This document shows positions 6,012 through 56,800 of a DNA stretch of 64,000 nt, one piece after another. Below the pieces are notes generated by a model. The model worked only from the letters and a program-made list of their open reading frames with translations, made no database searches and was not told the origin of the DNA. A program made the translations under genes and the position numbers. The stretch covers positions 248,001-312,000 of the forward strand of contig CAWUHX010000122.1 of the NCBI GenBank assembly GCA_963922205.1, in the 5' to 3' direction. The stretch's first letter is position 1, and the number at the start of each line of letters is the position of its first letter. This DNA is from Romanomermis culicivorax. Taxonomy: Eukaryota; Nematoda; Enoplea; Mermithida; Mermithidae.

Positions 6012-6983
6012 TTATCCACGGACACGTATCAATTTGGAAAGCACATTTTTCAGGCCATTCCTGAAGTCACGCAAATTTGCAAACATGAAAACGACAACAA
6101 TGAACGCCTCCATAACTGCTAATGGTGACACGTATACCCCAATTTCAAAAAGAGAATTTTCATCACTGCTGACCAATATCACTGAACTCAGGTTTTGCGC
6201 CAAATTAGTAGAAACGTGCACTAGTCCGGCCGTGGCTAACGTCTTGGTCAATTTTTTTTGCTTATTTGCATTAATGGTGGAAATGCTATCCATAGCTAAT
6301 GTCGGCTTGCGAATGTAGACAATCAAGAAAGAATAAGTGCACACCACCGTAATGTTGACGAGTACAAAAGTGCCAAACTCTACGGGTGTGAAATTATATA
6401 TAAGACTGCGAAATGCGCACAGGGTAACATACTCGTTTTTCGGCGCGGAAAAATTATGCACTATCCAAGCGATCACTGCGGCTATTATAGTAATGGAGAT
6501 TTCGGCAAAAATATAGCTCAAGCGTTTCGCTTTGTAATAGATCGGGTATACAACAGACTGAAACCTATTCAAGGCGATGAAAAAGGTGAGCAAAAGGCTC
6601 ACCAAGGCCAGAGCCTGAGAGCCAACTAAGTTCCAGCATGCTCTGGCTGACATGAATTCATGTCCAGACGTGATGTAATTGTAAAAATGGTAGGCATTTT
6701 GACAGATGTAAAAAGTGGACAGCAATGCTTCGCTTAACATCAGGGCGAAAATTTGAACAATACCTTTGTGCTGCACTGGTTTAAAAAAAATGATTGTCAC
6801 TATCATGGTCGTTGATGCCAGTAAATTTAAAATGGACGTGATTACGTAAAGTATACTACTGTATGAGTGGCGTCGGATTTGATCGTTTGAAGATTCAATC
6901 AGTAATTTTTGAATAGTAGTATTCATCATTATCGTTGAAAAATTCAAGATATTCATTGCTATAAGAATTTTTGTATAGGTCAT
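6012..6983 (-). CDS. Serpentine-type seven-transmembrane receptor (rhodopsin-like)
   Basis: An uninterrupted 323-residue single-exon frame with seven hydrophobic segments at about 44-67, 75-99, 115-138, 157-177, 203-225, 248-270 and 281-302. Cys116 at the top of TM3 and Cys189 in the second extracellular loop fit the class A disulphide. The TM3 end reads A-L-N-R-F-x-S-V-V-Y-P, a variant of the DRY region much like nematode Srsx/Srx-type chemoreceptors. TM7 ends A-N-L-R-D-F-R in place of NPxxY. Two or three N-glycosylation sequons lie in the N-terminus. It acts at the plasma membrane; the ligand is unknown. The ATG lies directly after CCATTTCTAG, which could be a trans-splice or cis-splice acceptor, and an ATATATATA tract is about 30 bp upstream. 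A neuropeptide-receptor assignment cannot be excluded. Confidence 0.8.
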   Translation of the reverse strand: MTYTKILIAMNILNFSTIMMNTTIQKLLIESSNDQIRRHSYSSILYVITSILNLLASTTMIVTIIFFKPVQHKGIVQIFALMLSEALLSTFYICQNAYHFYNYITSGHEFMSARACWNLVGSQALALVSLLLTFFIALNRFQSVVYPIYYKAKRLSYIFAEISITIIAAVIAWIVHNFSAPKNEYVTLCAFRSLIYNFTPVEFGTFVLVNITVVCTYSFLIVYIRKPTLAMDSISTINANKQKKLTKTLATAGLVHVSTNLAQNLSSVILVSSDENSLFEIGVYVSPLAVMEAFIVVVFMFANLRDFRNGLKNVLSKLIRVRG

Positions 6984-6999: not shown

Positions 7000-8585
7000 A
7001 GCAGGTATATATATGTATTGTATCAGGGGCAGGTGGTCATATTGAAGTAAATTTCGTTATTTTCTCATTAGCTTGGTAATGAAGAATAAACAGAATTATG
7101 AAACATAATGTCTTGAACCGCTGTTTCAGCATATCACGTACTTTTTCTCATTTCCAGACTTTGCATTTGCTTATTTTAGATCATGCTTTTGCAACCCAGA
7201 AATTTGTTGAAAAGTTGTTTTCGTGTATGGTTTTACGGTTCCGCACTTTTACGTAAAAAATATATACATTACGTAAAAAATATACAAATGTATACATTTT
7301 TCAAGTTGCATGATATTTTATGAGTAACATCGTAAAACCGTTAAACCATTACGTTTCACGTTTAAAAATTTTGAGGCTTTACAGTTTAACATACAAAAAT
7401 TTGTAAATTTCTTGTGAAAATTTTAAAATTTGTTAATTTTCAGGATTTTATGGTAACACGGTTTTACATATAAAAATTCGTTATATTGTTTGCGAAAATT
7501 TTTTAAGTTTTACGGTTTCACATGTTTTTGATACTTGACAACCTTGCAGTTTTCGATAATTATAAAAATATGTGTATCGCATTGTCCTTTGTTGACTCTT
7601 TTTTTCAACACTTCTCTTTTTGTTGACCATTGCAGGATTTAGAGCATGGTCATCTCAAACCCATGAAAACAATGTTCCATTTTTGATTGCGCCTCGCGTT
7701 TTTTGATACACCAAGCAGACTGCTTTCTGCCTTTAGGACTGTCTCCATCGTTATGACGATTAGACAGAATCAGCCTCTGATTGACTTTTATTGCACTAGC
7801 AGACAATGCACCCCGCCTACCGTGAACCCTCATCTATAAGTCGCGAATTATACTCGAAACAAAGGGTTGTGACTTATACCCGAGGATGACTTATATATGA
7901 AACACCTTTTCAATCAAATTATGCGACTATCACGACGGTTTAGATGCTTTTCGGACATCTGCTACACAATCAAAATTTCAACTAACCGTTTTTTCATTGA
8001 TTTAATATTTTGATGCCGCTCTTTTTTGGCAACATTTACGATTTCCAAACGAATACTTTAAGACACGATTCTTGCGAAGTTCTACCTTCCCTATGATAAG
8101 CTGAAATTTAATCATATCGCAAAAAGATATATTTTGGGTAGTATCGTACGCTGAGTTTCATGATATTACTTGTTTTGCGTAAAAATGAAAATTCACGCGG
8201 CTTCAGTAGGCCAAAGTTTTAAAATTAATGATTCTTTTGCATTTTTCAGTGGTATTGCCACCCGAGCGATATTTCCGGGTTGGGGTGATCTTATTGGATA
8301 AATGAATATTCGTTTTACACAAAGGAGAATAGCCACACCTTTTAAGAGGGTTTAAAAAGTCGAAAACGAGCCATCAAAATTAGATAAATTTTGTTTATGG
8401 GCACTATTGAGTTTATTCCCATCGGATACCGCAGAATTTAATTTTCTTATTTCACAACTGCAAGTTTCAGAGTAAATGTCGACATAACCCAAGTTACTAA
8501 TTTATTTGCTATATTATTCGTGATGTCATATTATAATACCCAGAAGAGTTTTCCTCTTCACATGAAAATAGGCCATGGAAAGACT
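7000..8585. other. Intergenic, AT-rich, no gene recognised
   Basis: The part at 7.24-7.52 kb repeats short ACGTAAAA / ACGGTTTTAC units. A short minus-strand frame at 7.64-7.83 kb has no recognisable domain. The last four bases (GACT, 8582-8585) are the left target duplication of the LTR element. Confidence 0.5.
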
Positions 8586-9480
8586 TGTAACGACCAGATT
8601 TGTGTGAGGTACTTTACTTCTAACCAATCCGTCGATACGGCGGGGACAAATAACGGGACGGGGGCGCGGGCGAACAGCTACAATAACAACGGGGATCGAC
8701 GGTCGCTTGAACATCGACAATAAACACGCTTCGAATTAAAATACGGACGGGGGCCTCGGTTTAAGTTGCTTTCGAATAGTCGGCCGCTTGCAAATGTATA
8801 AAAAGACGGGGCGAGCGCGGAAGTCAAAACGGAAAAACCACAAGAATAAGAACCAGAAAAGATCAAAATCACGCTTTGCTTCTTCTTTTATACGGCGATT
8901 TTGGCCACTCCCTGGGCGTCGCGGGAGGTCGAGCTTCTGTCCATCTTCTTCCGCCAATCGTCGTTTCCTGCTACGCTTTTTATGCTTTCTTAATTACGCC
9001 TCTCTAACGCTTTTCTGGTACCGTATGCTTTCTGTGCTTCACTTGCTTTCTACGGTGGGCTTGGCCACACCTTTGTGCTTCTGTGCATGCTTCCTGTATC
9101 GGTTTCTCTGTATACACATGTTTTGTGGGGCCGCCGCTACCGTTACACTTGAGACTACTGTACGGCGGGGCTTCTACGCATTTTACTGTGTGCAGGTGTT
9201 GTTTACGATTTTTACGGGGGATTACGGTAGCTGTGGAATGTGTAGTTTAGTGTGGGTTCTAGGGGAACAGCTGCCGTTTGTGCAAATTAATTAGGGCGTC
9301 TTAATTGGGCTACCGGGGTGTGAACAGATCAAAATAAAGTACTTCACGTAATTTTGTAGGAATGTTTGGGTGTGAATCCCAGACATCCTTGAGACGATAA
9401 AAATAAAATAATATCTAATAAATGTCTATTACATACAGTATGCTACATATTTACAGTACTGCTTTAGCAGGTACGTTACA
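8586..9480 (-). repeat. 3' LTR of the 9.3 kb element
   Basis: 895 bp copy of the LTR. It directly follows the polypurine tract on the minus strand. A 168-codon plus-strand frame present in both LTRs is antisense to the element and shows no family match. Confidence 0.95.
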
Positions 9481-9511: not shown

Positions 9512-10939
9512 TCAAGGCTTTGGAGGTTGAGGAGGGGTGGGGGTGGATTCGATAGTTGCTGTTCGAGGGTAGAAAGGGGTTGTCTCGTTTACATGCACCG
9601 TAAATGTAATATTCTTATGGGGGTGCTTAAGTGTAACGTTGGGGTACATGAAATTTGTGACTGTATAGGGTCCGTTTTGGCGAGGGAGGAATTTGGGAGT
9701 CAGCCCTTGTTTACACGAATGATTTTTATAAAGAATATGATCACCTGCCTTGTAATGTATGTTCTGAGCATGCTTGTTATACTGACGGGTATAGTGGGCT
9801 TGGGCTTTTTGCAAACTTTTCTGCACGGTTGAGAGTGCTTCTGTAAAATGTGATTTTACACGAAGGGCGTAATCATCTAAATCAACCATGTAGGACGTGG
9901 GGAAAAAATTTAAAGCTGCATCTGACGGCAGATTAGCTTGTCTACCGTGGAGTAATTCAAATGGGGGATATGAAGTGCTATCGTTTTTATGAATGTTGAT
10001 CGAAAAAACGGCGTACGGGAGATAAGTATCCCAATCAGTGTGATTTGAATTGATGTACATGCGGAGACGGGTGGCTAAGGTTTGGTTGCAACGCTCAACT
10101 TCTCCATTGGCAATGGGATGATATGGGGTAGTGTGAATTTTCTGAGTATTGCATAAACTGGTGATCCGTGAGAAGAGATCGGATACAAAATCGGAGCCAC
10201 GATCACAATGGATGATTTTTGGGGACCCATGACGGCAAACAATTTTGGTTACAAATAGCTTGGCAATAGTGGCTGCAGTGATGTCAGGGGTCGGGAATGC
10301 CTCTACATACTTTGTGAAATAATCGATGAAAACGACAATGAAGCGGTTGCCGTCTTCAGTGAGGGGTAACGGTCCCATGCAATCAACGCCAACTCGATCA
10401 AATGGGCCAGTTGGCTGAATTGGTACCAAGTTGGCATGTACTTTGTGCCTAAGAGCTTTCTGTGTCTGGCATGGGTGGCAAGTTTTCCAGTAACGTTTGA
10501 TATCCCGGCTCATTTGGGGCCAAAAATATTTCTGTCTGAGCAAGTGTAAAGTTTTCCTGGCCGCAAAATGGCCTGTGAACTTGCTGTCATGATGTGAGGC
10601 AATGAGATGCTGGACTTGCGACTTGGGAATGTATAGTTTTGCCTGTTTGTCGGCTATACGGAAGAGAATGTTTTGATGCACTGCAAATTTGATCAGGGTA
10701 AGGGGGTGTTTTTGGGCGATTTTTGCTAAAATACTCTTGACAGTTGGGTCAGTGCATTGGAGTTCGGCAAAGTTTTTCTGTTGCTCTTCTTGTTCAGTTG
10801 CTTCGGCTTCCAAAACTGAATTGATAGTTGATATTTCGGGGCGGGTTTCTAATTGCTCAATATCAAAGGATTGCTTTGCTGTCTGTGAGGGGAATCGAGA
10901 AACTGCATCTGCGTTGCGGTTAGCAGTGCCTTTCTTGGG
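9512..10939 (-). CDS. Integrase part of the polyprotein, beyond an in-frame TGA
   Basis: It continues in the same frame as the upstream ORF (the stop and the next open codon are in register). It has an HHCC zinc-binding N-terminus (H-H...C-H-P-C), a catalytic core with G-V-D-C-M-G-P, C-D-R-G-S-D-F and G-E-V-E-R-C-N-Q-T holding all three acidic residues, and a C-terminal GPYTV domain. Integrase inserts the cDNA into the genome. With no ATG soon after the stop, it can only be made by readthrough or not at all in this copy. Confidence 0.9.
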   Translation of the reverse strand, partial: PKKGTANRNADAVSRFPSQTAKQSFDIEQLETRPEISTINSVLEAEATEQEEQQKNFAELQCTDPTVKSILAKIAQKHPLTLIKFAVHQNILFRIADKQAKLYIPKSQVQHLIASHHDSKFTGHFAARKTLHLLRQKYFWPQMSRDIKRYWKTCHPCQTQKALRHKVHANLVPIQPTGPFDRVGVDCMGPLPLTEDGNRFIVVFIDYFTKYVEAFPTPDITAATIAKLFVTKIVCRHGSPKIIHCDRGSDFVSDLFSRITSLCNTQKIHTTPYHPIANGEVERCNQTLATRLRMYINSNHTDWDTYLPYAVFSINIHKNDSTSYPPFELLHGRQANLPSDAALNFFPTSYMVDLDDYALRVKSHFTEALSTVQKSLQKAQAHYTRQYNKHAQNIHYKAGDHILYKNHSCKQGLTPKFLPRQNGPYTVTNFMYPNVTLKHPHKNITFTVHVNETTPFYPRTATIESTPTPPQPPKP

Positions 10940-13900
10940 TCAAATGTCTAGCTGAATACCGGAGAGGGCTAATCCCCAACGGGCAATGCGAGGGGACCGG
11001 TTTTCCTTTTGTAAGACTGCCTGAACTGCTGTGTGGTCAGTGTGTACAATGACATGTTGCTGGAAAAGATAGGGGCGGAAATACTTGACAAATTCGACTA
11101 CTGCAAGGGTTTCCAACTCAGTGATCGGATAGTTGCGTTCTGCGGGTTTCAATGTGCGGCTCCCAAAAGCAATGGGGCGATCTTGACCTTTACTATCTAG
11201 CTGACTGAGAATGGCGCCAATTCCGAGTTTTGAGGCGTCAGTTTGCAGGATAAAGGGTTTTGTGAAATCGGGATGCTGTAGTATTGGGGCATGAATGAGT
11301 AATTCTTTTAGCTTAGTGAATCCATTTTGCTGTTCAGGGCCCCAGGAAAATTCTGAGTTCTTTTTGAGTAGAGATGTGAGGGGGCTAGAAACTTGAGAGC
11401 AATTTGGGATGAATCTGCGATAATACGAGGGTAGGCCAAGGAATGACTTAACTTCTTTTGAGCTTTTGGGTGTGGGTATGTCATAAATGGCCTGTACCTT
11501 ATGGGGATCTGGTGAAATTCCTTGCTGAGAAATGACGTGGCCTAAGTATTGGACTTGGGGCTGGCAGAATTTGCATTTTTGTATGTTTAGCTTAAGGCCT
11601 GCTTGTGAGAATCGGGCAAGAATAGTGTCTAAACGTTCCAGCATTTGGGCATGGGAGTCTGCGAATACCAAAACATCGTCGAGATATACAAGGCATGTGT
11701 TCCATTGCAGACCCGAAAGAATAACATCCATTAACCTTTGGAATGTGGCTGGGGCATTGGTGAGTCCAAAAGGGAGGTAATTGAATTGATACTGGCCGGC
11801 TGAGCAATTAAAGGCCGTTTTTTCTCTGTCTGCTTGTGCTATGGGAATGGAATAGTATGCATTGGATTGGTCAAGGGACGTAAAATATTTCATCCCACGG
11901 AGGGTGTCCAGAATTTCGTCTATCCCGGGCAAGGGGTAGGTATCTTTTTTTGTGACTTTGTTGAGGCCTCGAAAATCAATGCATAAACGATGGCCTCCAT
12001 CTTTTTTGGGAACTAAAACTGTGTTGGTACACCATGGGGAGTTGCTTTGGCTTATGACACCTGCTGCTGCGAGTTGCTCAACTTCTGCTTGTATGATTTG
12101 CTTTTCTTTTGGGGAAGTCCGATAAAGTTGTCTATGTACGGGTTGGGAGCCATTGGTGTCAATTGTATGTGAAACGATGGTGGTTCTACCTAAGTCCATT
12201 TTGGATTTAGCATATAATGTGGGATACTTCGATAGGGCGCGTAGGAGTTGCATTTTTTCTGCTTCCGTGAGGTCACTGGAGGTTAAATTGACATTTTCTT
12301 TTAACCATGTGAATGTGTCAAACCGGTTGGGCTGGTTTTGCGTTGAAGGGGTTAGATTAGCGGGAGCATTTTGTTTTGGGATGTAACAAGAGACTGTGCC
12401 AATGCATGTTCCAGGGTAAAGAATTTGAGCTGTTTCTTGCGTGTTTAGGACGGATATACGTATGCGACTGTTTTGGTTTTCTGAGATACAAGCTGCGAAA
12501 TGGACTTTGGGATTCTGTTTGGGTTTCGGGGTGAATTCAAGCTGTTTGACCTGTAAGTACGATTTGGGCAAGGGGACAGTAAATTCGGTTACTGTACGCG
12601 GTGGTAATTCTAATTTCTCATCCAAATAAGTTCCACCACGAGTTGAAAGAGGGCTATATTCTAGGCCATCACAGGGTATTATAACATTGCCAAATTTGAC
12701 GTGTGATTTTTGATTGTTGATAGTGTATTCCGAATATCGACTGAGAAAGTTTTTGCCTAGAAGGATGTCTGCTGTGCAATCTTTTTGGACATGGACCATG
12801 ATTGTTTCCTGGATCGTTTGGGCTGTTACTGTGACAAAAGTGGTTCCCACAAAGTGAATGGGAAGATTATTTGCTGCTTTTGCTTGGACTAGCGGGGGTT
12901 TCATGTCTAACTGTAAAAGTTGAGCGATTCGGGAATCAATGAGTGAGTAAACTGCACCAGTGTCAATCATGCCTTTTGTCATTAATTTGCCGTTAAGTGT
13001 GATTGGAATATGAGGGGTATGTTTCTCAGGTACATTTTGGGGTGGCTTATTTGATGCAGATTGGTGAATTTGATTAATGAGTTCGATTGCAGGAGTTCGG
13101 GGGGTATCAATATCGACAAGGACGTATTTCTGCTGTGTTTGTGCCCCACGACGATTAGCTAATTCTAAGAGAGCATGGCCGAATGATGGGGGAATGGTCT
13201 CATGTAAATGTCTGTTGTTTGATGGTATTTCGTATGCATGTTCGTTTGTGGCATGATTCTTCGGAGAGGGGAAATATTTTCGAAGAACGAGAAACGAATA
13301 AAAGATGCCTGCAATAACTACAGTAATAACGGCGAGATTGATAATGATTTGCAGGGGTCCTTTGAGTAAATTGTTTAATCCGTCCGTGAGACTTTGGGTG
13401 GTACCAGTTATTACATGTTCTATGCCTTGACCGGCGCCAGAGAGTGTATTTCCGAGTGCTTGGCCAGTGCCTGAGATCATGTTGTAAACTGTATCAGAAT
13501 TGAGAGACATTTGGGCGGTGTAATTGACGAGTTTTTTGACAATGTTTTCGAGTGTGTGAGTTTTGTAAATGTATTGTTTCAAAAAGAGTAAGTTGGTTGA
13601 AATAGTTGCAAGTTGATCATGAAAAATGGCGGGTGTATTAAAATGAAAAAGGGAGAAATTTTGGTTCCAGACGATTTCTAAAGGTAAATTTGTGACATGC
13701 GGGGATCCTGTTTCACTGACCCATGTATTATTCTGTTTGTAAAGGGCTACATGCATGTGATGGCAGTCAACGGTTTGTGAGAAAGGGGTCAAATCGTTGC
13801 CTCCTGGATTTGAAAACATGAGTTCAGTTCCTATGAGGATGGGCAAAAGTTTGTAGCATGTTTGGTTGATTTTGTGGTTGTAAAAGACTTTGGATGCGTT

Positions 13901-16741
13901 TACCTGCTTGCAGGGCCAGACTGTGAGGGCTTCTCCTGTGAATTCTGCTATGATGTCCGTTCGCTGTAGGAATGCACGCGCTCCAAGGGTTGCATCAAGA
14001 CGCAAAATTTGCCATATGAGATCAAGGTGACGTTGTGCCTGTCTGCATAATTCATTCCATACATTTTTGAAATTTTGAATTTCGAATTCCTGTATTTTGT
14101 CTGCTAGATAGTTTAGTTTTGCATTGATGGGTTCAAAATCATCAAAATCGTATAGTGTAGTATGAGTTTCGTTGGTTTTTGGGGTTAAAAATGCGTTATG
14201 ATGTGGTGTGCTTTTGTCTAATTGTACAATAATGCCTTGTTCGGTTAGAATGCTGTCTTGGATTTCTGGGCAATTGGGGTTTGAAAAGAGTGTGTTTTTA
14301 ACCGAAAATGCACCTTGTAGCTCTTCTATTATCATGTGTGTTTGCGTGAGTTTGATGGGATGTGTATTTTTGTATTCGAAAGGACATAGGTTTTCAAATG
14401 CTGTTTCATTCCAGATAATGGATCCGTCGGCTGTGACACAATGACCTGATGTCGGTTTGCATGACCCCAGGTCACCTAATGTACCTGTCATAGATTTTCC
14501 ATTCCAAGATGCTATTTGTCCTATTTCTATGATGACGTTAGTGACCGAGGTACAATGGTCTGTACAACACCATGTGTATTCTACGCTTAGGGAGTTATTT
14601 GTTGACCAAAATCCTGGTTGGGTTTCGTATAATTTTTGACCGTTGTGTTCTTTGTCTATAACGATTGCCTTACAAACATGTGGGGTTAGATTTTGCATTT
14701 CGGTTTTGTCGAAGACAATACCTTTTGATCCAAAAAATCCTGTATTAGTACAAATTTTGCATTTGCGAACACTGCATTTGTATGCGTCTGTAATGTGGGG
14801 CTTAGTGGAGGGGATATAGATTTTTCCGAATGTTTGTACGGGTTTGTCTACTGTGGAAGGGGGCATGCATGATACAAGTTTTGGTATGCTGACTGAGTGA
14901 CCGCTCAATGAAGTTCCACACATCTGAAATTGGGCACTACACGATGTGGGGATTATTATACATAAAAATATACAATACAATGGCCAATGTAGTGTTTTAG
15001 TGGAGGCGGCAGGGTACTGTGTTTTTTCGCTCTGCTCGATTTGGCGTAGCAGTTTTTGGTGTTGTCCTTTTGCGATTTTGAGCTGGGGGAGTGGCCGGTT
15101 TGCAATCTGAACATTCTGTAAAAATTTAGAAGTTGAGTTATGGGATGGGGTTTGGACTTGCTTACTTATGGGGGTCGGTAGAAGCGTTTGGCGGGGGCAG
15201 AATTGGTAGGGTTCGGGGGTCAGGCCATGGAGAAGGGATAACAAATTGCGGCCTGTTTTCGACGGGGTTTCGGGGGCGGTGGGCGGCGTTGTGTCTTGCT
15301 TTCGGGGGACCTTGTAGCCTAGGGGGATGGTGGGCGGCGATTTTTCGATTTTTTCAGCTTCAGGCGTAGGGGGTGGTGACATGGCGCACCAATCGGGTAC
15401 GTCCAGATCAAGGACGTATTCGTCGCTACGGCGGTGGGTGTTGGGCATGATAGTCCCTAAAGTAGTCTGAGGGCCGTTAGTTATGGCGGGTAATTTTGAG
15501 TAAAATGCGGGGTCGTCAATGTCCATGAGGGGTTGGGGTTGCCTGTACTCAATGCAATTTTGAATATTACGACTTTGCTGATTTGGACAATATCTGCTTG
15601 TATGACCTCTCTGCTTGCATATAAAACATTGAAAATTGGAGTAGGGTTTTGAAGGGCAGTTATCTGATCTATGTCCTGTTTGGGAGCAGTGGATGCATGG
15701 GCTTTTGCAATCACGTGTACTGTGATTATTACGGAAACAGATTTCACATGATTTTCGGGTGCCTACTGATTTACAATTACGAGCTACGTGTCCTATTTGT
15801 CCACACTGGAAGCATGTGGGTTGCCTGGGGGTGGTATTGTTCCTGTAAGCATTATTCCTGCTGAAAGTATTGTTACTGAAATTGTTGTAGCTACTCTGTT
15901 GTTGGGGTTGAGGTTTTTGTTTGATCTGCAACTGTAAATCTTTTACTTGTTGTTCTAACTGATGCAAAAGATCCTGTTGGTCTGTGTTTTTGGTGAGGGA
16001 AAAGATGGGTTCGGGTTTTGGGGGTATGAAGGGGAGGGCGTTAGACTTTAACTCATTTCTAAGAATTTGCTGTTCAATGTAAGCTGCTTCGTCTGACATT
16101 TCTTTTAGAGTTGCGAACCTTCTATACTTAATTGCTTCCCTGATTTCGTTTTGCATGCCTTCTACAAAGAGGGGTTTTATGATCATTTCTCGTGCATCTG
16201 TGTTAAAGTTAGGGTAGGCGAGGGTTGCGAGATGTTCTAGATCGAATAAGAATTCCGTTACTGTTTCTGAACGCTTTTGTTTTCTTTCGCGTAAGAATTG
16301 TTGATGTAGCTCATTATCTCTATTGTTTGGGAAAAATGCCTGTAATGCGACTTTATACTGCTCGTATGTGTGGGGAGGGTTTTCGGAATTTGCTAAACTT
16401 TTGAATTTTGCTAACGCGGCTCCTCCTAAATGAATCTCTAAACATGCCAACTTTAACTGTACGTCTGTATCTTTCATGCCTTGGAGTGCCATGAATTGTT
16501 CTAATCTTTTGTTCCATTCACCAAAATGTTGGGTCACGCCGCCTGTGAATACTGTAGGTTTCGCGTAGAAATTGTTTGCCATGTTATTACGAATGTTTGC
16601 TGTTCTTAGATCGTCTATTAGGGTGGGGTTTACTGTATTCTGATTCAATTGTGTGCGTAGGGTACGAAAATGTTCTGAAAATAAATCGTTTATCTGTTCT
16701 CTAACGATTTCTCCTAAATGATCTTGCGTTTGGTGGGTCAT
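10940..16741 (-). CDS. Gag - envelope-like - protease - RT - RNase H polyprotein
   Basis: The start chosen is the ATG at 16741; the frame is open to about 17135 but with no earlier ATG. In order: Gag capsid-type region (about 16560-16050) with motifs of the Ty3 Gag family; four CX2CX4HX4C zinc knuckles (about 15811-15587) where one or two are usual; a proline-rich linker; the envelope-like segment (13265-15007); aspartic protease with M-I-D-T-G-A and an I-L-L-G flap-side motif (about 13024-12725); RT with F-R-G-L-N-K, L-P-F-G-L-T-N-A-P and Y-L-D-D (about 11669-11692); RNase H with Q-T-D-A-S and E-T-L-A-V. Cleavage by its own protease is expected. It ends at TGA 10940-10942, and the same frame continues into integrase. 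The long coding region with few breaks implies recent activity. Confidence 0.93.
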   Translation of the reverse strand: MTHQTQDHLGEIVREQINDLFSEHFRTLRTQLNQNTVNPTLIDDLRTANIRNNMANNFYAKPTVFTGGVTQHFGEWNKRLEQFMALQGMKDTDVQLKLACLEIHLGGAALAKFKSLANSENPPHTYEQYKVALQAFFPNNRDNELHQQFLRERKQKRSETVTEFLFDLEHLATLAYPNFNTDAREMIIKPLFVEGMQNEIREAIKYRRFATLKEMSDEAAYIEQQILRNELKSNALPFIPPKPEPIFSLTKNTDQQDLLHQLEQQVKDLQLQIKQKPQPQQQSSYNNFSNNTFSRNNAYRNNTTPRQPTCFQCGQIGHVARNCKSVGTRKSCEICFRNNHSTRDCKSPCIHCSQTGHRSDNCPSKPYSNFQCFICKQRGHTSRYCPNQQSRNIQNCIEYRQPQPLMDIDDPAFYSKLPAITNGPQTTLGTIMPNTHRRSDEYVLDLDVPDWCAMSPPPTPEAEKIEKSPPTIPLGYKVPRKQDTTPPTAPETPSKTGRNLLSLLHGLTPEPYQFCPRQTLLPTPISKQVQTPSHNSTSKFLQNVQIANRPLPQLKIAKGQHQKLLRQIEQSEKTQYPAASTKTLHWPLYCIFLCIIIPTSCSAQFQMCGTSLSGHSVSIPKLVSCMPPSTVDKPVQTFGKIYIPSTKPHITDAYKCSVRKCKICTNTGFFGSKGIVFDKTEMQNLTPHVCKAIVIDKEHNGQKLYETQPGFWSTNNSLSVEYTWCCTDHCTSVTNVIIEIGQIASWNGKSMTGTLGDLGSCKPTSGHCVTADGSIIWNETAFENLCPFEYKNTHPIKLTQTHMIIEELQGAFSVKNTLFSNPNCPEIQDSILTEQGIIVQLDKSTPHHNAFLTPKTNETHTTLYDFDDFEPINAKLNYLADKIQEFEIQNFKNVWNELCRQAQRHLDLIWQILRLDATLGARAFLQRTDIIAEFTGEALTVWPCKQVNASKVFYNHKINQTCYKLLPILIGTELMFSNPGGNDLTPFSQTVDCHHMHVALYKQNNTWVSETGSPHVTNLPLEIVWNQNFSLFHFNTPAIFHDQLATISTNLLFLKQYIYKTHTLENIVKKLVNYTAQMSLNSDTVYNMISGTGQALGNTLSGAGQGIEHVITGTTQSLTDGLNNLLKGPLQIIINLAVITVVIAGIFYSFLVLRKYFPSPKNHATNEHAYEIPSNNRHLHETIPPSFGHALLELANRRGAQTQQKYVLVDIDTPRTPAIELINQIHQSASNKPPQNVPEKHTPHIPITLNGKLMTKGMIDTGAVYSLIDSRIAQLLQLDMKPPLVQAKAANNLPIHFVGTTFVTVTAQTIQETIMVHVQKDCTADILLGKNFLSRYSEYTINNQKSHVKFGNVIIPCDGLEYSPLSTRGGTYLDEKLELPPRTVTEFTVPLPKSYLQVKQLEFTPKPKQNPKVHFAACISENQNSRIRISVLNTQETAQILYPGTCIGTVSCYIPKQNAPANLTPSTQNQPNRFDTFTWLKENVNLTSSDLTEAEKMQLLRALSKYPTLYAKSKMDLGRTTIVSHTIDTNGSQPVHRQLYRTSPKEKQIIQAEVEQLAAAGVISQSNSPWCTNTVLVPKKDGGHRLCIDFRGLNKVTKKDTYPLPGIDEILDTLRGMKYFTSLDQSNAYYSIPIAQADREKTAFNCSAGQYQFNYLPFGLTNAPATFQRLMDVILSGLQWNTCLVYLDDVLVFADSHAQMLERLDTILARFSQAGLKLNIQKCKFCQPQVQYLGHVISQQGISPDPHKVQAIYDIPTPKSSKEVKSFLGLPSYYRRFIPNCSQVSSPLTSLLKKNSEFSWGPEQQNGFTKLKELLIHAPILQHPDFTKPFILQTDASKLGIGAILSQLDSKGQDRPIAFGSRTLKPAERNYPITELETLAVVEFVKYFRPYLFQQHVIVHTDHTAVQAVLQKENRSPRIARWGLALSGIQLDI
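13265..15007 (-). other. Envelope-like glycoprotein segment inside the polyprotein
   Basis: This ~580-residue segment lies between the Gag linker and protease. It begins with a hydrophobic signal-like stretch (near 14990-14935) ending S-C-S-A. A Cys-rich ectodomain follows with a C-C-T-D-H-C cluster, about 20 cysteines and several N-x-S/T sequons, then a long helical region (about 14130-13970), then a glycine-rich stretch and a strong single transmembrane segment (about 13349-13280) with a basic tail. This is the layout of a type I viral glycoprotein. Which viral glycoprotein family it comes from could not be fixed from sequence; a negative-strand RNA virus origin is a guess. The same segment, truncated, is in the element at 19386-23219. 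Confidence 0.75.
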
Positions 16742-16970: not shown

Positions 16971-16979
16971 CGGTCACCA
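16971..16979 (-). other. Candidate primer-binding site
   Basis: TGGTGACCG begins five bases inside the 5' LTR border on the minus strand, where Ty3/Gypsy elements have a site complementary to a tRNA 3' end (TGG pairs with CCA). The tRNA was not identified. Confidence 0.45.
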
Positions 16980-16984
16980 AAATA

Positions 16985-17879
16985 TGTAACGACCAGATTT
17001 GTGTGAGGTACTTTACTTCTAACCAATCCGTCGATACGGCGGGGACAAATAACGGGACGGGGGCGCGGGCGAATGGCTACAATAACAACGGGGATCGACA
17101 GTCGCTTGAACGTCGACAATAAACGCGCTTCGAATTAAAATACGGACGGGGGCCTCGGTTTAAGTTGCTTTCGAATAGTCGGCCGCTTGCAAATGTATAA
17201 AAAGACGGGGCGAGCGCGGAAGTCAAAACGGAAAAACCACAAGAATAAGAACCAGAAAAGATCAAAATCACGCTTTGCTTCTTCTTTTATACGGCGATTT
17301 TGGCCACTCCCTGGGCGTCGCGGGAGGTCGAGCTTCTGTCCATCTTCTTCCGCCAATCGTCGTTTCCTGCTACGCTTTTTATGCTTTCTTAATTACGCCT
17401 CTCTAATGCTTTTCTGGTACCGTATGCTTTCTGTGCTTCACTTGCTTTCTACGGTGGGCTTGGCCACACCTTTGTGCTTCTGTGCATGCTTCCTGTATCG
17501 GTTTCTCTGTATACACATGTTTTGTGGGGCAGCCGCTACCGTTACACTTGAGACTACTGTACGGTGGGGCTTCTACGCATTTTACTGTGTGCAGGTGTTG
17601 TTTACGATTTTTAGGGGGGATTACGGTAGCTGTGGAATGTGTAGTTTAGTGTGGGTTCTAGGGGAACAGCTGCCGTTTGTGCAAATTAATTAGGGCGTCT
17701 TAATTGGGCTACCCGGGTGTGAACGGATCAAAATAAAGTACTTCACGTAATTTTGTAGGAATGTTTGGGTGTGAATCCCAGACATCCTTGAGACGATAAA
17801 AATAAAATAATATCTAATAAATGTCTATTACATACAGTATGCTACATATTTACAGTACTGCTTTAGCAGGTACGTTACA
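16985..17879 (-). repeat. 5' LTR of the 9.3 kb element
   Basis: 895 bp, TGTAAC...GTTACA when read on either strand because the ends are inverted repeats. It matches 8586-9480 except for about 11 substitutions (for example at the GAACAGC/GAATGGC site). It contains a minus-strand TATA box and, 80 bp away, a plus-strand TATAAAAAG. Confidence 0.95.
17284..17291 (-). promoter_or_regulatory. TATA box in the 5' LTR (U3)
   Basis: TATAAAAG on the minus strand, so transcription would start near 17260 and run into the Gag frame. The first in-frame ATG of Gag is at 16741, giving an untranslated leader of about 520 nt. The identical site is in the 3' LTR near 8885-8892. Confidence 0.5.
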
Positions 17880-17883
17880 GACT

Positions 17884-19385: not shown

Positions 19386-19778
19386 TGTAACGAATGGTTT
19401 ATTCGTTGATATTCATTATTTCTTGCTTTAACTTCCTTGTACGATTTTCTGTAATGTCCAATCTATCGCTTTTCCATAACTAACTTTTCTAGTTTGATTC
19501 CATGTTTTGTGTTTACTCTATCGCTATAATTTTGCTATAATTAGCTATCTATCGGAGCTCGATCGTTCTAACGGGAATAATATTTACTTAGCTGTTTTAC
19601 TGCTTATAAACGTTTGTGATAATGATGGATTAGGAGAGAGAATTAGAGCCGATCTATCAGTGTGATTCGCCATAACTTTAGTTGCCTTACGCTATATTGT
19701 AACGGCTACTCAACGTCTACGATATTGGCTTTGTATTACGGCTATCCAATAAAAGCTTAATATATCGTTATCGTTATA
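19386..19778 (+). repeat. 5' LTR of the deleted element
   Basis: 393 bp, TGTAACG...CGTTATA. Matches 22827-23219 with about seven substitutions, grouped near its 3' half. Confidence 0.93.
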
Positions 19779-19813
19779 TGGGGGGTCATCAAAACTAATT
19801 ATTCGAATTTTGT

Positions 19814-22786
19814 ATGCCAATTACACAAGCAATGACATTGGACGAGGTACGCACTAATTTAGATTTGTTGCGGGAACAGGTTCGTCAAGAGCTAGGTATC
19901 CAGAATCAGCAGCTCAATGCACTCCAGACCCCGCGACCCAATCTTATTCGGTTTGAGCCAGATTTCTTTCATGGTCGGCCCACTGAAAATTTCGAGTCTT
20001 GGTTGAATCGGTTTAACTTAGTTGCACAAGCACAAAAATGGGATGAAACATATAAACGACTAGTTTTCCCAACCTTGTTGCGGGACGCAGCAGAAATAGT
20101 TTATAATAGTCTTAGTGACACCCAACGCACCCAACTTGATTTTCTAGCTCTTACAGAGCTTTTCCGACAAAGATTTCGGCCACCACATATTAGTGACATT
20201 CGATCCACAGAGCTTCATGCTCGCCGTCAAAAATCGTCTGAAAGTGTTACAGATTTCAGTATTGCCATACAAAAATTAGTTCTTGAAGCATATCCAGGTT
20301 TGCCACCTGATGCTATAGATACGCTCTGTAAAAGATTCTTCATTAATGGATTAAACCAGGACTTACGCCCTGATGTGATGAAACGTAGCCCCACAACATT
20401 TTCTGAAGCAGAAATTTTGGCTAGGCAGCTAGAAACCCAACTACTAATTGAATCACAGTTGAGAGATAGAGAAAATAAGGAATGGTCAGGTTGCCACCGG
20501 GTAAATACCATAAAAACCCAAAACAGTCGACCCAATAATTATCATAGTCCAGCAGGGAATCGACATGAGAAGACAGAGAAACAAACCTGTCATTATTGCA
20601 AAAAAGAAGGTCATTTTATTTTGGTATGTCGCAAAAGGCAAAGAGACATTCAAAATGGCACAAACATGGCAGTTTCCATGGGTCAATCAGCATATAGAAT
20701 GCCCAAATCCTCGCTTCCTAGAATTAAGCCTGGGAACCATAGTGTCCATGTTGCACAGCCTTTAGTCCAACCTGAGCGCACACCACCCAGTAGGGAACAT
20801 CTCCTAGAACAGGAAGTTGAAAGCTTAAGGCGACAACTTGAACAGATGTCGCAAAATTTCTCACAAAATCCATCATTCAGTGTAACTGCACAACCTGTCT
20901 CCCCTGAGAAAGATATGGTATCTCAGTGTTCTGCACAGCTACCTACTTACAAAAGTGGATCAGACATTGTGCTACAGTATCCCACTGACCAGAATGTGGA
21001 CGATTTTCCAGTAGATATTCACAAGAGTAGCAGAACGAATAAAAAAAAGTCAACTTCTAAGAATAAGTTGCAGTCCAAGGCTAGGAACAAAGTATCAACT
21101 AGTGATAACAAAAATCCTTCCAGTATACGATGGTATGAAAAGTATACTCCCACCAAATCCCTCTCCCTTCAAGTGGGAATGATTGTAGGAATTATTATTA
21201 TGGCAATAATATGCCCATTGACTGTTGGAGTAGAGCATGATTTCTACCAATGTGGTCATGGCCGCAGTGGCCATCCAATCGCAATACCAAAGACAATGGA
21301 TTGCAAAATGCCTTCAAAGGAAGTGCCAAAGAAGGTCCAACTGAAGCTCTACCAGCCAAACCACAAACCAGCCACAATCAAAGCATGGAAACCCCGACTT
21401 CACCAAAGAACAATCTGCACCAATATTGGATTCTTCAGTGCAACAGGAATTGAAGAAGAAGATGATAGTTCAAATGAAGAAGATGACAGTGGAAGTCACA
21501 ACGTGGTTGCCCAAGCGCAAAGAACTGATAGATTCTGCAAATGGATAATAGATTATCTCGGGAAAGCATACATTGATCCTACAATGTCTGCTGAAGATAT
21601 CCAGTTCTTATCAGCTGAAGCCTCTCATTATATGATTTTGGACAATCTACTGTATCGTAGAGGTAACAAAGATAACCAATCACCTTGTATAGTAGTCCCA
21701 CAGTCCCTGACAACAAAAATCTTCAAATTGTACCATGGAGACAAGTTTAATGGTCATTTAGGATTTATGAAAATGCTCGCCAAAATTTCCAAAAGATTCT
21801 ATTGGCACAACCTGAATAGTGACATTCATAAGATGTGCAAGGTGTGTGTAAAATGCTTCTCCTACAAGCAGCCGAATCAAAAGACAAAAGTTCCAATGCA
21901 ATCCATATTGATCCCTGGGAATCCCTTTTCAATGATTGCAGTTGATGTTATGGGTCCCTTGCCTCTCACGGAGCATGGTAACAAATATCTAGTTGTTTTC
22001 ATGGACTACTTTACCAAGTGGCCCGAGGTATTTGCAGTGAATAATGTCACAGCAGAGATAACGGCGAGACTTTTTGTAGAAAATATAGTTTGTCGCTTTG
22101 GTAGCCCACATCAAATCCTCTCTGACTGTGGTACAAATTTTACATCGAAGTTATTTGGAGAAATAGCACGACTTTGCGAAACGGAACAAAAACTAACAAC
22201 ACCGTACCACCCCCAAAGCGATGGTATGGTAGCGCGTTTCAATCGCACACTGACAAATATGCTGAAAATGTATGTCTCTACAACCCATGATAATTGGGAT
22301 GCTCACTTACCATATGCCCTTTTCGCCTATCGGACATCAGTCCATGAATCCACCAAGGAAACACCCTTCTACTTACTGTATGGACGTGATGCCCGGATTC
22401 CTGCAGATGAAAACTTTGCAGTGTACCGAAGCCCCTATGTTGAGAGCTTTTCATCATACAAAGAAGAGCTTCAAGATCGACTGACTGTGGCATGGCAAAT
22501 AGCATCAGAGCACATTCAACAAGCACAACGACTGCAGAAAACCCAATATGATAAAACAGCCAAGATTGTGATCTTCAAGAAAGGAGATATAGTTTATTTG
22601 CATACTCCAACCGTAAAGCAGGGGAAGTGCCCCAAGTATACCGTATATTGGTATGGACCATATCGAATCATGAAGATGGACCCACCCAATGCCCACATAC
22701 GACTTATAACAAAGCCAGATAGTCCCCTCGAAGTTGTTCATGTCAATCGGTTACGACTATTCACCACAGAGACCAAGCCTTTGTGA
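19814..22786 (+). CDS. Gag - envelope stub - integrase fusion ORF
   Basis: A 990-residue uninterrupted frame from the first ATG after the LTR. Residues 45-230 are a Ty3-type Gag capsid region; one CX2CX4HX4C knuckle sits at about 259-272; a coiled-coil-like stretch follows. A hydrophobic signal-like segment lies at about 449-470, then some 95 residues align with the start of the envelope-like segment of the larger element (C-G-x-x-x-S-G-H-x-x-x-I-P-K and C-T-N-x-G-F-F). After an acidic stretch the frame passes at about 563 into the pre-integrase region, the HHCC domain and the integrase core. D711 and D771 are present, but the position 35 residues after D771, where the family has the catalytic Glu, is Ala807. 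So the enzyme should be inactive. It is a deletion derivative whose frame has been kept or happens to be kept. Confidence 0.9.
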   Translation: MPITQAMTLDEVRTNLDLLREQVRQELGIQNQQLNALQTPRPNLIRFEPDFFHGRPTENFESWLNRFNLVAQAQKWDETYKRLVFPTLLRDAAEIVYNSLSDTQRTQLDFLALTELFRQRFRPPHISDIRSTELHARRQKSSESVTDFSIAIQKLVLEAYPGLPPDAIDTLCKRFFINGLNQDLRPDVMKRSPTTFSEAEILARQLETQLLIESQLRDRENKEWSGCHRVNTIKTQNSRPNNYHSPAGNRHEKTEKQTCHYCKKEGHFILVCRKRQRDIQNGTNMAVSMGQSAYRMPKSSLPRIKPGNHSVHVAQPLVQPERTPPSREHLLEQEVESLRRQLEQMSQNFSQNPSFSVTAQPVSPEKDMVSQCSAQLPTYKSGSDIVLQYPTDQNVDDFPVDIHKSSRTNKKKSTSKNKLQSKARNKVSTSDNKNPSSIRWYEKYTPTKSLSLQVGMIVGIIIMAIICPLTVGVEHDFYQCGHGRSGHPIAIPKTMDCKMPSKEVPKKVQLKLYQPNHKPATIKAWKPRLHQRTICTNIGFFSATGIEEEDDSSNEEDDSGSHNVVAQAQRTDRFCKWIIDYLGKAYIDPTMSAEDIQFLSAEASHYMILDNLLYRRGNKDNQSPCIVVPQSLTTKIFKLYHGDKFNGHLGFMKMLAKISKRFYWHNLNSDIHKMCKVCVKCFSYKQPNQKTKVPMQSILIPGNPFSMIAVDVMGPLPLTEHGNKYLVVFMDYFTKWPEVFAVNNVTAEITARLFVENIVCRFGSPHQILSDCGTNFTSKLFGEIARLCETEQKLTTPYHPQSDGMVARFNRTLTNMLKMYVSTTHDNWDAHLPYALFAYRTSVHESTKETPFYLLYGRDARIPADENFAVYRSPYVESFSSYKEELQDRLTVAWQIASEHIQQAQRLQKTQYDKTAKIVIFKKGDIVYLHTPTVKQGKCPKYTVYWYGPYRIMKMDPPNAHIRLITKPDSPLEVVHVNRLRLFTTETKPL

Positions 22787-22826
22787 AATTGTGTATTTCG
22801 GTGTAGGTTTTTCTTAAGGGGTGAGG

Positions 22827-23219
22827 TGTAACGAATGGTTTATTCATTGATATTCATTATTTCTTGCTTTAACTTCCTTGTACGATTTTCTGTAATGTCC
22901 AATCTATCGCTTTTCCATAACTAACTTTTCTAGTTTGATTCCATGTTTTGTGTTTACTCTATCGCTATAATTTTGCTATAATTAGCTATCTATCGGAGCT
23001 CGATCGTTCTAACGGGAATAATATTTACTTAGCTGTTTTACTGCTTATAAACGTTTGTCATAATGATGGATTAGGAGAGAGAGCTAGAGCCGATCTATCA
23101 GTGTGATTCGCCATAACTTTAGTTGCCTTACGCTATATTGTAACGGCTACTCAACGTTTACGATATTGGCTTTGTATTACGGCTACCCAATAAGAGCTTA
23201 ATATATCGTTATCGTTATA
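22827..23219 (+). repeat. 3' LTR of the deleted element
   Basis: 393 bp copy following the purine tract; bounded on the right by the CAAT target duplication. Confidence 0.93.
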
Positions 23220-25915: not shown

Positions 25916-26105
25916 GTTGATAGTGGTCACAGCAACCACTTCAACTACGAATTGTTGCAAAAAAGAGGCACCTTTCCTGTTGCTCGGTTGGCTCAGTTGG
26001 TTAGAGCGTGCGGATGGTAGCGTCAAGGTTCCGGGTTCAAGTCCCATACCAAGCCTAACTTTTACTGAAGCACCAAGTAGCGGAAATCGATTGCCTCAAC
26101 ACCCC
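25916..26105 (+). repeat. tRNA-derived SINE nested in the left arm
   Basis: This stretch is absent from the right arm. Bases 25982-26055 have tRNA shape: GCTCGGT pairs with ACCAAGC apart from one mismatch, an A box (TGGCTCAGTTGGTTAGAGCG) and a B box (GGGTTCAAGTCCC). The anticodon stem does not pair well, so it is a SINE head rather than a tRNA gene. Confidence 0.55.
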
Positions 26106-53885: not shown

Positions 53886-56800
53886 GTTATATGCTTCAAC
53901 AGGCAGGCAAGGTTAAAGTTCAAAAGACTCGTTTTTGAAATAAGTGGAAGAGTTTTATGCTGCACTGCAGAGATTAAAGAAAAAATTTTCCTTATAATGG
54001 GCCTTTATTTCCCGGCTAAAGCACAAAAGAAAGACAAGTTTATTGATTTACTTTTCGACAAAACGTGTGATAATCCAAGATTTTATGACGAGGCTATAGT
54101 GCTAGGAGATTTTTACTTTGTAAAAGACAAAAAACTTGTCAGGTCACTCGCAACAAATGGAATAGAAATAGGTAAAGAAAACCTCAACAAAATAAAATAT
54201 ATGCTGAATGTAGTGGACAGTCATAGAGATACTCATTAAGAGAAAATGAAGTTTTCCTTTTTTAGCAACGCACACAAAACATATTATGTGACAAAAAATT
54301 ATCACCAAACACTGAAAAGTGGCTTCTTGATGAGTGGACCCTTAGTGACCATAAAACGTACTCAATCTCTATTAAACATTCTTTCCTAAAGACTAAAAAG
54401 TTGCCAAGTCTTATTGGAAATATAATAGTGCGGAAATCAAGGAAATAAATAATAAAAGAATGGACAAAATCGAAAAAAGAAAACTCTCGGCAACAAGGGA
54501 ATGAAATAAAGAGGAAAATCAAACATTATTGTGATGACATACATAAAAAAGAAGCCTATGTTCGAAGAACTAAAAAAGAAAATATAGAAAAGGAAATGAA
54601 CAGGGTAGAAGAACGACTACAGTACTACGCGAGGAGTGAAGAGCTGAAAGAAAGGTTGCAAAAAACAGAAAGAAAATTACGAAAACTAGAAAATTATGAA
54701 ATAGAGCAAAGATTGAAGACCACACATTATAAAGAAATGATTACAGAGCGATACAGTATAGCCACAGCTAAAATGATACAAAAAAGGTCAGCTGAAAACA
54801 GAATAATGTACTCAATCAAAAATGAAAAAGCCGAAAAAATAGAAGATCAAGGAAACACATTAGCAGAAGTTCGGTCGCAGTTCAGTAAGAAATTCACATC
54901 TGAGACCATAGATGAAGACAGCATAGAAGAATTTTTACTAGAAGAACCGTACAACACGGTTTCCGAAAATCAAAATCTACAGTTAGATAAGGAAATAACA
55001 GACGAAGAAGTAAAAGCCGCGATAAATAGTTTCAACAAGAACAAATCCCCAGGAATTGATAGACTGCCTATCGAATTTTACAGAGAACATAGTGAAATTT
55101 TGATTCCAAAACTCACAAGATTGTACAACGATATATATGCAAGAGGAGAAATGACCTACTCAATGTATCATGGGGTAATTTCTCAAATATACAAGGGTGA
55201 TGGTGAAAAAGATCTACTAAATAATTGGAGACCACTTAAAATGCTCAATACCGACTACAAAATATTGGCGAAAATATTAGTTAATAAAATAAAAGACATA
55301 ATGCCCAAAATAATACATCCGGATCAAACATGTGCAGTAAAAGGCAGAGATACAAGAGACCGAATACTGAAATTCTACAATGTAATAAATTACTGTAATG
55401 ACAATGAAACTAACGGAATACTCTTGTCTGTAGATCATATGAGTGCTTTCGACATAATAGAATGGCCATTTGTGTTTAGGGCGTTAAAATACTTTAATTT
55501 TTGTGAAACTTTCATAAACTGGATAAAAATCATATACAAAAAAGGACATGCACGATCGACAGTCCAGGTGAATGGGCATCTGGCCGCACCTTTTGAGGTC
55601 ACCAGGGGTGTTAGACAAGGATACCCTCTTTCCGCACTTTTGTATGTGATTGCATCCGAACTAGTAACAAACTACATAAGAAATATGAAAGGAGTGATTG
55701 GCATAACTATTGGACGAGAAGAGTACAAAATTTCAAATTATGCTGATGACACGAATTTTCTCCTCTCCGATTTCCAGTCTTTAGATCGAATAATAGGTAT
55801 CTATAAGCTTTTTAAACGAGCTAGTGGGGTGACTTTAAAAGAAGAGAAAACAAAAATTTTAATTTTTGGTTACAAAAATATGTTGCCAAAAAAATATCAA
55901 GCATATCTAGAGGATACAATAAGAATATATGGTATATTTTTCAACCGTTTTGGGACAGACGATCAGAATTTCGAAAAAATAAAAGAAGAGTTAGGGAAAG
56001 TTAGAAATAGACCAGTAAGCTATGACATTTCGTATTTTGGCCGGGCAAAAATGCTAGACACATATACATTATCTAAACTTTGGTACAATCTATGCTTTTG
56101 TGAACTATCTGACGAATTAAAAAAAACAATTGAACAATCCTGCATAAGGTATATATGGTATCCAAAGCAAGGACGAGTACCGGTCAAAACGAATACTTTA
56201 AAACTGAGCATAGAAAAAGGTGGCATAAATTTCATTGACATTAAAGAAAAACAAAGTGCTTTAATTTTTATGATGCTCGTAAGATATAAAAAATGTCAAC
56301 AAAAAAATGATCTCTTTTGGCAATATCACAAGATGAAGAAAAGAACGTATGGAGACAGAGAACCACCATTTATTTATAAAATAATCGTAGAAACAGAAAA
56401 ACTATTACAGATGAATCAAGAAGATAATGGTTTGAAGATTAAGGGGAGAGTGGAAAAATATCAAAACGAAGCTATTATATCAATTGCTAACCGAAGACAA
56501 AGAAAAACAGGCAAACACAATGAAATACTGGTCAAAAGAACTGTTAGTAGACAAGGAAGAAATAGACAAGTATTTAAGATTGCAGAATCCAAGTATGTCC
56601 AAGGCGCAGTGCGAAATATTCATTATTCCATTTTGCACAGATTTTTGTACACGAGGTCATGCGCCAGCTATTATATGACAGGCGAAGACCCAAATAGCAA
56701 GTATTGCTTAGGAAGAAAATTAGGAAAAAAATTAATTATTAAAAAATTAATTAATAAAAATTAATAGTTAAAAAAAATTAGGAAAAAAAGGGAAAATCTA

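Follow-up and report, generated by a model that had tools for sequence, protein, structure and literature searches.

A Ty3/Gypsy element of Romanomermis culicivorax with a fusion-glycoprotein-like Env in frame between Gag and protease

The best explanation of our findings is a Ty3/Gypsy lineage in which a captured viral fusion glycoprotein has become fixed in frame between Gag and protease. We analyzed a 64,000-nucleotide stretch of Romanomermis culicivorax DNA (the window), which carries on its minus strand, from 17879 to 8586, a 9.3-kb LTR element that is young and of the Ty3/Gypsy type (Table 1). The two 895-bp LTRs are 98.8% identical (11 mismatches, 0 gaps), and between them a minus-strand ORF (17119-10940) runs for 2059 codons without a stop and encodes, in this order, Gag, a signal-like segment, a Cys-rich ectodomain, a membrane anchor, protease, RT, and RNase H. 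In many other copies the frame is longer than in the window copy, which has a stop ahead of integrase. The Gag part matches the Pfam families zf-CCHC (2.2e-9), Retrotrans_gag (2.2e-5), and Ty3_capsid (9e-4, under the cut-off of that family). Protease, RT, and RNase H are followed by integrase as the last domain, as in other Ty3/Gypsy elements, and the TG...CA LTR ends, the primer-binding site (by appearance), the polypurine tract, and a short target duplication of 4 bp likewise correspond to that group. The closest solved relative of the RT is the Ty3 RT/RNase H (4ol8, 5.6e-89), which makes this a Ty3-type RT and not a BEL-Pao pol. The 3' LTR begins just 31 nt past the integrase stop, so there is no env in the usual 3' place: env precedes the protease, in contrast to the gypsy/errantivirus and retrovirus layout with env downstream of pol, and there is no room between pol and the 3' LTR for an ORF such as the CERV ORF of the Cer1 lineage.

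Table 1. Features of the element and their coordinates in the window
Feature	Coordinates	Strand	Basis or remark
Target-site duplicate AGTC, 4 bp	8582..8585; other copy 17880-17883	.	Read directly
3' LTR	8586..9480	-	LTR pair comparison; edges read directly
Polypurine tract GGAAGGAGGGAAA	9481..9493	-	Read directly
Integrase frame	9512..10813	-	Same frame as long ORF; Integrase_H2C2 8e-21, rve 2.2e-9
In-frame stop, end of long frame in window copy	10940..10942	-	
Reverse transcriptase and RNase H	10943..12649	-	Pfam RVT_1 2.2e-39, RT_RNaseH 1.2e-37
Spacer and aspartic protease	12650..13264	-	Pfam gag-asp_proteas 2.1e-8
Env: fusion-glycoprotein-like ectodomain and C-terminal membrane anchor	13265..15007	-	Pfam PF24664 1.2e-18
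Membrane anchor region	13271..13369	-	Hydropathy maximum of long frame
Signal-like hydrophobic segment, start of Env segment	14933..15007	-	Hydropathy
Gag	15008..16741	-	First in-frame ATG at 16741; capsid-like domain, four CCHC knuckles, linker
Intron-like segment GTAAGC...TTTTTACAG, 50 nt, candidate intron	15116..15165	-	Gag-Env linker
Four CCHC knuckles	about 15814-15584	-	Upstream of Env segment
Primer-binding-site-like TGGTGACCG	16971..16979	-	Directly after 5' LTR; assigned by appearance only
5' LTR	16985..17879	-	895 bp, ends TGTAAC...GTTACA, read directly

Profile evidence supports the identification of the Env segment as a viral fusion-type glycoprotein. Its plus strand is full of stops, and its minus strand is open for 581 codons, of which residues 278-456 match PF24664 (Monjiviricetes_fusion) with 66.9 bits against a cut-off of 27, while BDV_G (1.4e-3) and herpes Glycoprotein_B (4.9e-3) match below their cut-offs. 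The same profile is matched by the Env of a second family in this genome, L004 (55.2 bits), and by those of the outside relatives P0009 and P0010, and a precomputed domain list contains Monjiviricetes_fusion for all 11 outside relatives. The captured glycoprotein probably belongs to class III. No match was returned by a PHROGs search with the Env segment, by a PDB sequence search with Env or the N-terminal part of Gag, or by scans of IMG/VR for relatives. The anchor (residues about 547-579 of Env) has a 19-residue hydropathy mean of 2.4, the strongest in the long frame, and the signal-like segment (residues about 5-30; 1.4-1.6) is the second most hydrophobic place of the frame. Env contains 9 N-glycosylation sequons and 20 Cys; of the 17 Cys beyond residue 25, 15 are conserved without exception or with a single exception among the aligned rows that cover the position. 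A preliminary description of this DNA had placed an envelope-like glycoprotein inside one continuous frame, behind the zinc knuckles and ahead of the protease, and took this to point to a polyprotein bound to the membrane or to an unusual mode of expression. The placement is borne out by the PF24664 match, the relatives, the knuckles upstream, and the aspartic protease downstream; the description's further claim of a signal-like segment, a Cys-rich ectodomain, and a membrane anchor inside the polyprotein agrees with the hydropathy peaks, sequons, and Cys.

We searched the 359-Mb genome (595 contigs) with Env as the query, which counts env-bearing copies and cannot reveal env-less ones, and scored 75 window-family Env copies, the window's own included, among 4212 first candidates. 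These copies are 97-100% identical and near full length, 1 of the 75 has a stop, and many belong to frames 2484-2591 codons long. Of 30 window-family copies (one of them the window's own), 24 are free of stops over the 500 codons that precede env, and the last 600 nt before env contain a stop in 7 of 70. Among 12 colinear copies, dN/dS was 0.060 for Env and 0.052 for its ectodomain, compared to 0.095 for the knuckle region, 0.078 from behind the anchor to RT, and 0.255 for the linker; this set, taken from 30 fetched copies and including the window's own, leans to intact copies, with 12 excluded for stops, frame shifts, or length and 6 more that were not colinear without gaps. Because dN/dS is as low as in the enzymes, Env is under purifying selection and, in the copies compared, is kept as a protein as strictly as the enzymes are.

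The gag-env-pol arrangement recurs in diverged elements. In L004, whose Env is 37% identical to that of the window, the knuckle, signal segment, Env, anchor, and protease share one frame across the entire 3.7-kb stretch. A search with the L004 Env gave 74 scored matches among 4009 candidates, many of them 37-44% identical and several lying in frames of 2183 to 3100 codons. From this search we picked, mostly for long open frames, ten stretches of ~0.8 kb just before diverged Envs, with Gag mostly not fetched: all ten have an in-frame hydrophobic segment, nine are open throughout, two have a CCHC knuckle in view, and eight have an in-frame Met no more than 60 codons ahead of the hydrophobic segment. 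Among the 11 outside relatives, Gag and Env share one frame in five (P0005, P0006, P0012, P0013, and P0014), each with a signal-like segment ahead of Env, and Env continues into protease/RT in seven (P0004-P0008, P0012, and P0014); P0004, P0007, and P0008 start at or within Env, leaving the upstream side out of view, and P0010 and P0011 have no visible context. When stretches upstream of 20 RT matches were searched with the window Env (tblastn, E 1e-5), it was found in 3, all of the L004 family, and was absent from the other 17.

Several further observations concern these relatives and the rest of the window. Members of the L004 family repeat at a spacing of about 7.3-7.5 kb (G000:C293 390075-405467 and C77 999969-1016354), which suggests tandem element arrays. 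A second LTR element on the plus strand of the window (19386-23219), with 393-bp LTRs that are 98.2% identical, has a single 990-codon ORF with Gag, a signal segment, the first part of Env, and then integrase; RT was not found in this ORF, and judged by eye the element seems to derive from the L004 family by internal deletion. The window also contains a 722-codon frame of another retroelement (54596-56764, plus strand; RVT_1 3.5e-29), a 323-codon frame with a weak, sub-threshold 7tm_1 match (6012-6983, minus strand), and a tRNA-Thr (ggt) predicted with a bacterial setting (25982-26055, plus strand). The Env relative P0011 is filed under a gammaproteobacterial MAG, perhaps through eukaryotic contamination of that bin.

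One origin of the env-bearing rows is not shown by our RT tree. The RT tree compared 8 rows labelled env-before-protease (with Gag unseen for P0004 and P0008) with 17 labelled without; absence of env was checked by tblastn (E 1e-5) for 10 of the 13 Ty3 rows in the latter set, the label being unchecked for L033, L039, L040, and 4 distant rows. L032, which reads 103 codons before a stop, was left out, and L031 and L037 are short. The 8 env-bearing rows stand apart from the 13 Ty3 rows labelled env-less (90/100 for the latter) and the best tree requires 2 env changes, while a single env clade is not rejected (AU p 0.281) and occurs in 16% of bootstrap trees. The Env tree groups the window with P0004, P0008, and P0010 (100/99), and the RT tree likewise unites the window, P0004, and P0008 (100/99). 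P0009 has an Env of the same family, 33% identical to the window's, preceded by a stretch with a sub-cut-off match (E 0.015) to the end of DUF5641, which we take to be the tail of a BEL integrase. P0009 is a probable BEL element, in which Env would occupy the usual downstream place, and if so, this Env family has moved between superfamilies and positions.

For the expression of such a frame, we lean toward a model in which a Gag-Env-Pol polyprotein would be passed across the ER membrane by means of an internal signal, leaving Gag and Pol cytosolic, with splicing in addition. The genomic RNA would be translated into one Gag-Env-Pol polyprotein, whose internal hydrophobic segment would act as a signal and thread the ectodomain into the ER until the anchor stopped transfer, so that both Gag and Pol would be cytosolic. 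On the lumen side, signal peptidase, perhaps cutting after SCSA, would detach Gag from Env, and on the cytosolic side the protease of the element would cleave Env off Pol; the outcome would be a membrane-tethered Gag, a type I Env, and an Env-tethered Pol on one membrane. Splicing at an acceptor just ahead of env would probably yield a second product: in the window family, removal of the 50-nt intron would lead to a stop at the start of env and to Gag alone, and in other families an env-proximal message may be made instead. Net charge is positive right after the anchor in 6 of 7 cases and before the signal in 5 of 7; the contrast across the signal is small, with equal charge on both sides in P0005 and a reversed contrast in 2 of 7. 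Against the polyprotein model stands its stoichiometry, since one chain gives equimolar Gag, Env, and Pol, an unusual ratio. The stops before env in 7 of 70 copies, the small charge contrast, and the pattern of variation between acceptor and env described below also count against it.

Splicing probably also shapes the output of the element, as judged from signals ahead of env. The 50-nt segment in the Gag-Env linker scores highest among donor/acceptor pairs of the internal region with a spacing of 40-120 nt, and among 70 fetched copies (drawn from the 75 scored, one being the window's own) the donor is present in 70, TTTTACAG in 68, and the 50-nt length in 70. The score of this pair was reached by 44/300 and 34/300 shuffles, and the pair alone is not beyond chance; the splice-site weights follow the C. 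elegans consensus. Acceptor-like sites recur near the signal segment: of those in the 640 nt upstream, the best is no more than 160 nt away from it in 8 of 11 families (one of the eight, L116, being weak at 7.1 bits) and elsewhere in 3, the rows being the window, L004, and nine of the ten fetched stretches, with L115 left out as near-identical to L116. The summed acceptor score near the signal was 96.8, compared to 85-89 for shifted intervals that overlap this region and 32-65 for those farther out than 160 nt, and codon shuffles of the 11 families matched the sum in 0/500 and the count in 1/500. Without the two families that prompted the idea, 6 of 9 have the site near the signal, matched by shuffles in 0/1000 by sum and 13/1000 by count. 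In the window, TTTTTCAG is enriched, with 17 occurrences against 9.0 expected.

Variation among the copies was also compared across this region, by eye and with no p-value. Upstream of the donor, variable sites in the linker fall at codon positions 1, 2, and 3 in numbers of 13, 9, and 48, whereas from the acceptor to env they number 9, 14, and 10, with no codon-position bias in the Gag-Env frame; such unbiased variation beyond the acceptor would fit a normal Gag frame that terminates there in some of the messages. Removal of the 50 nt would bring a stop near the beginning of env into frame, and in 66 of 70 copies the post-splice frame ends with a stop at codon 36 or 38. Its openness up to that point is not counted as evidence because all three frames are mostly open in this A/C-rich stretch. 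A search for spliced retrocopies gave 0 matches to variable-gap patterns, the sensitivity of which was not established by a control. The genome contained no exact match to the SL1 pattern used.

These signals bear most directly on a competing explanation that we consider unlikely but take seriously, namely that Env is made solely from a spliced RNA joining a 5' exon to the acceptor before env (or, in some families, from a Met before the signal), with Env-Pol or a processed Env as the product and the frame shared with Gag incidental. The near-signal acceptors of 8 of 11 families, which go beyond codon shuffles, are in its favor, as are the Met codons within 60 codons of the segment in 8 of 10 stretches and the CERV protein of Cer1, which comes from a spliced message (PMC10309623). 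Only 2 of 10 stretches show a knuckle and 8 of 10 have a nearby Met, so a separate Env start is possible there, and these two counts slightly lowered our confidence in the polyprotein model and slightly raised that in exclusive production from spliced RNA. On the other hand, exclusive splicing needs no common frame, yet in the window, L004, and five outside proteins Gag and Env are read in a single frame across dissimilar linkers, a pattern suggestive of joint translation, and in the window the closest in-frame Met upstream of the signal-like segment lies far back in Gag, at 15382.

Two further explanations appear improbable to us. Env could be an optional intron, with Gag-Pol made from the spliced message and Gag-Env-Pol a minor product; the length of the window Env is a multiple of 3 and splice-like sites are present, but the interval from the anchor to the protease active site contains none of the 15 best acceptor-like sites listed. 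With a similarly low probability, the glycoprotein could be real and act mainly within the cell or particle, for instance by anchoring Gag to the membrane, rather than as a fusogen during entry. The position of Env does make it a linker that would tether Gag to the membrane, and LTR retroelements are able to live without entry, but the profile matched is that of a fusion-protein family and falls within the ectodomain, the Cys are conserved, and the dN/dS of the ectodomain is as low as stated above. Finally, a host-derived or random insert, a decayed copy, or an assembly chimera is favored by the in-frame stop at 10942-10940 and nothing else, and can practically be dismissed given the many copies, several families, outside relatives, and dN/dS; a decayed or private insert is rejected by the 75 copies, a dN/dS of 0.06, and the L004-Env families, and an origin from the host or absence from related elements, raised in the preliminary description as grounds for abandoning its claim, is contradicted by the layout of the second family and the five outside proteins.

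The polyprotein model may be extended to a whole radiation of infectious-type Ty3/Gypsy elements with gag-env-pol order, a membrane-threaded polyprotein, and a mini-intron that switches between Gag alone and the full chain. We regard this extension as tentative and somewhat more doubtful than probable, and the counts of knuckles and Met codons in the ten stretches made it marginally more so. If it were true, the Gag shell, the fusion glycoprotein, and the enzymes would reach one membrane as one chain, in a flavivirus-like manner.

To our knowledge, known env-bearing LTR elements all place env after pol. Gypsy/errantiviruses and retroviruses, which have a pol of the same broad kind, carry env 3' of pol and express it via a spliced RNA, and the env of lokiretroviruses is also downstream of pol. 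The gag-env-pol order breaks the standard assumption behind env screens, and screens limited to the region 3' of pol would miss it. Among the systems compared below, chuvirus glycoproteins are in the same Pfam class as our PF24664 match, and BARE is an element of the Copia type.

Anakin elements, which are mosquito BEL-Pao elements with a chuvirus glycoprotein, resemble the element described here in being LTR elements with a captured glycoprotein of negative-strand RNA viruses; they differ in being Pao and not Ty3/Gypsy, and BEL-Pao envelope-like proteins are described as lying downstream of the polyprotein (PMC7642597). For Gypsy elements, another report finds no clear evidence of such glycoprotein capture (PMC10084718). 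The Env of lokiretroviruses is described as similar in sequence to Mononegavirales fusion glycoproteins, but these are vertebrate retroviruses with a dual RNase H (PMC9040795). Cer1 of C. elegans shares with our element the Ty3/Gypsy type and a long polyprotein frame, has three CCHC fingers, and obtains an extra product from splicing; it differs in that its extra ORF, CERV, follows pol and is not Env-like, and the portion of the account cited mentions no insert between Gag and protease (PMC10309623). BARE, a one-frame plant element, splices to favor a Gag-only message, as removal of the 50-nt segment may do here, while Env goes unmentioned in the section cited (PMC3735527). Our literature search found no gag-env-pol element, and the phrase gag-env-pol with retrotransposon gave 0 papers, with preprints, Repbase, and most subscription journals outside its scope.

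In the flavivirus capsid-anchor-prM-E polyprotein, capsid, an internal signal, and luminal glycoprotein are followed by cytosolic enzymes. The element described here may work alike, without shared descent from what is an RNA virus, and its gag-env-pol order offers another solution to the problem of bringing Gag, Env, and Pol together on a single membrane.
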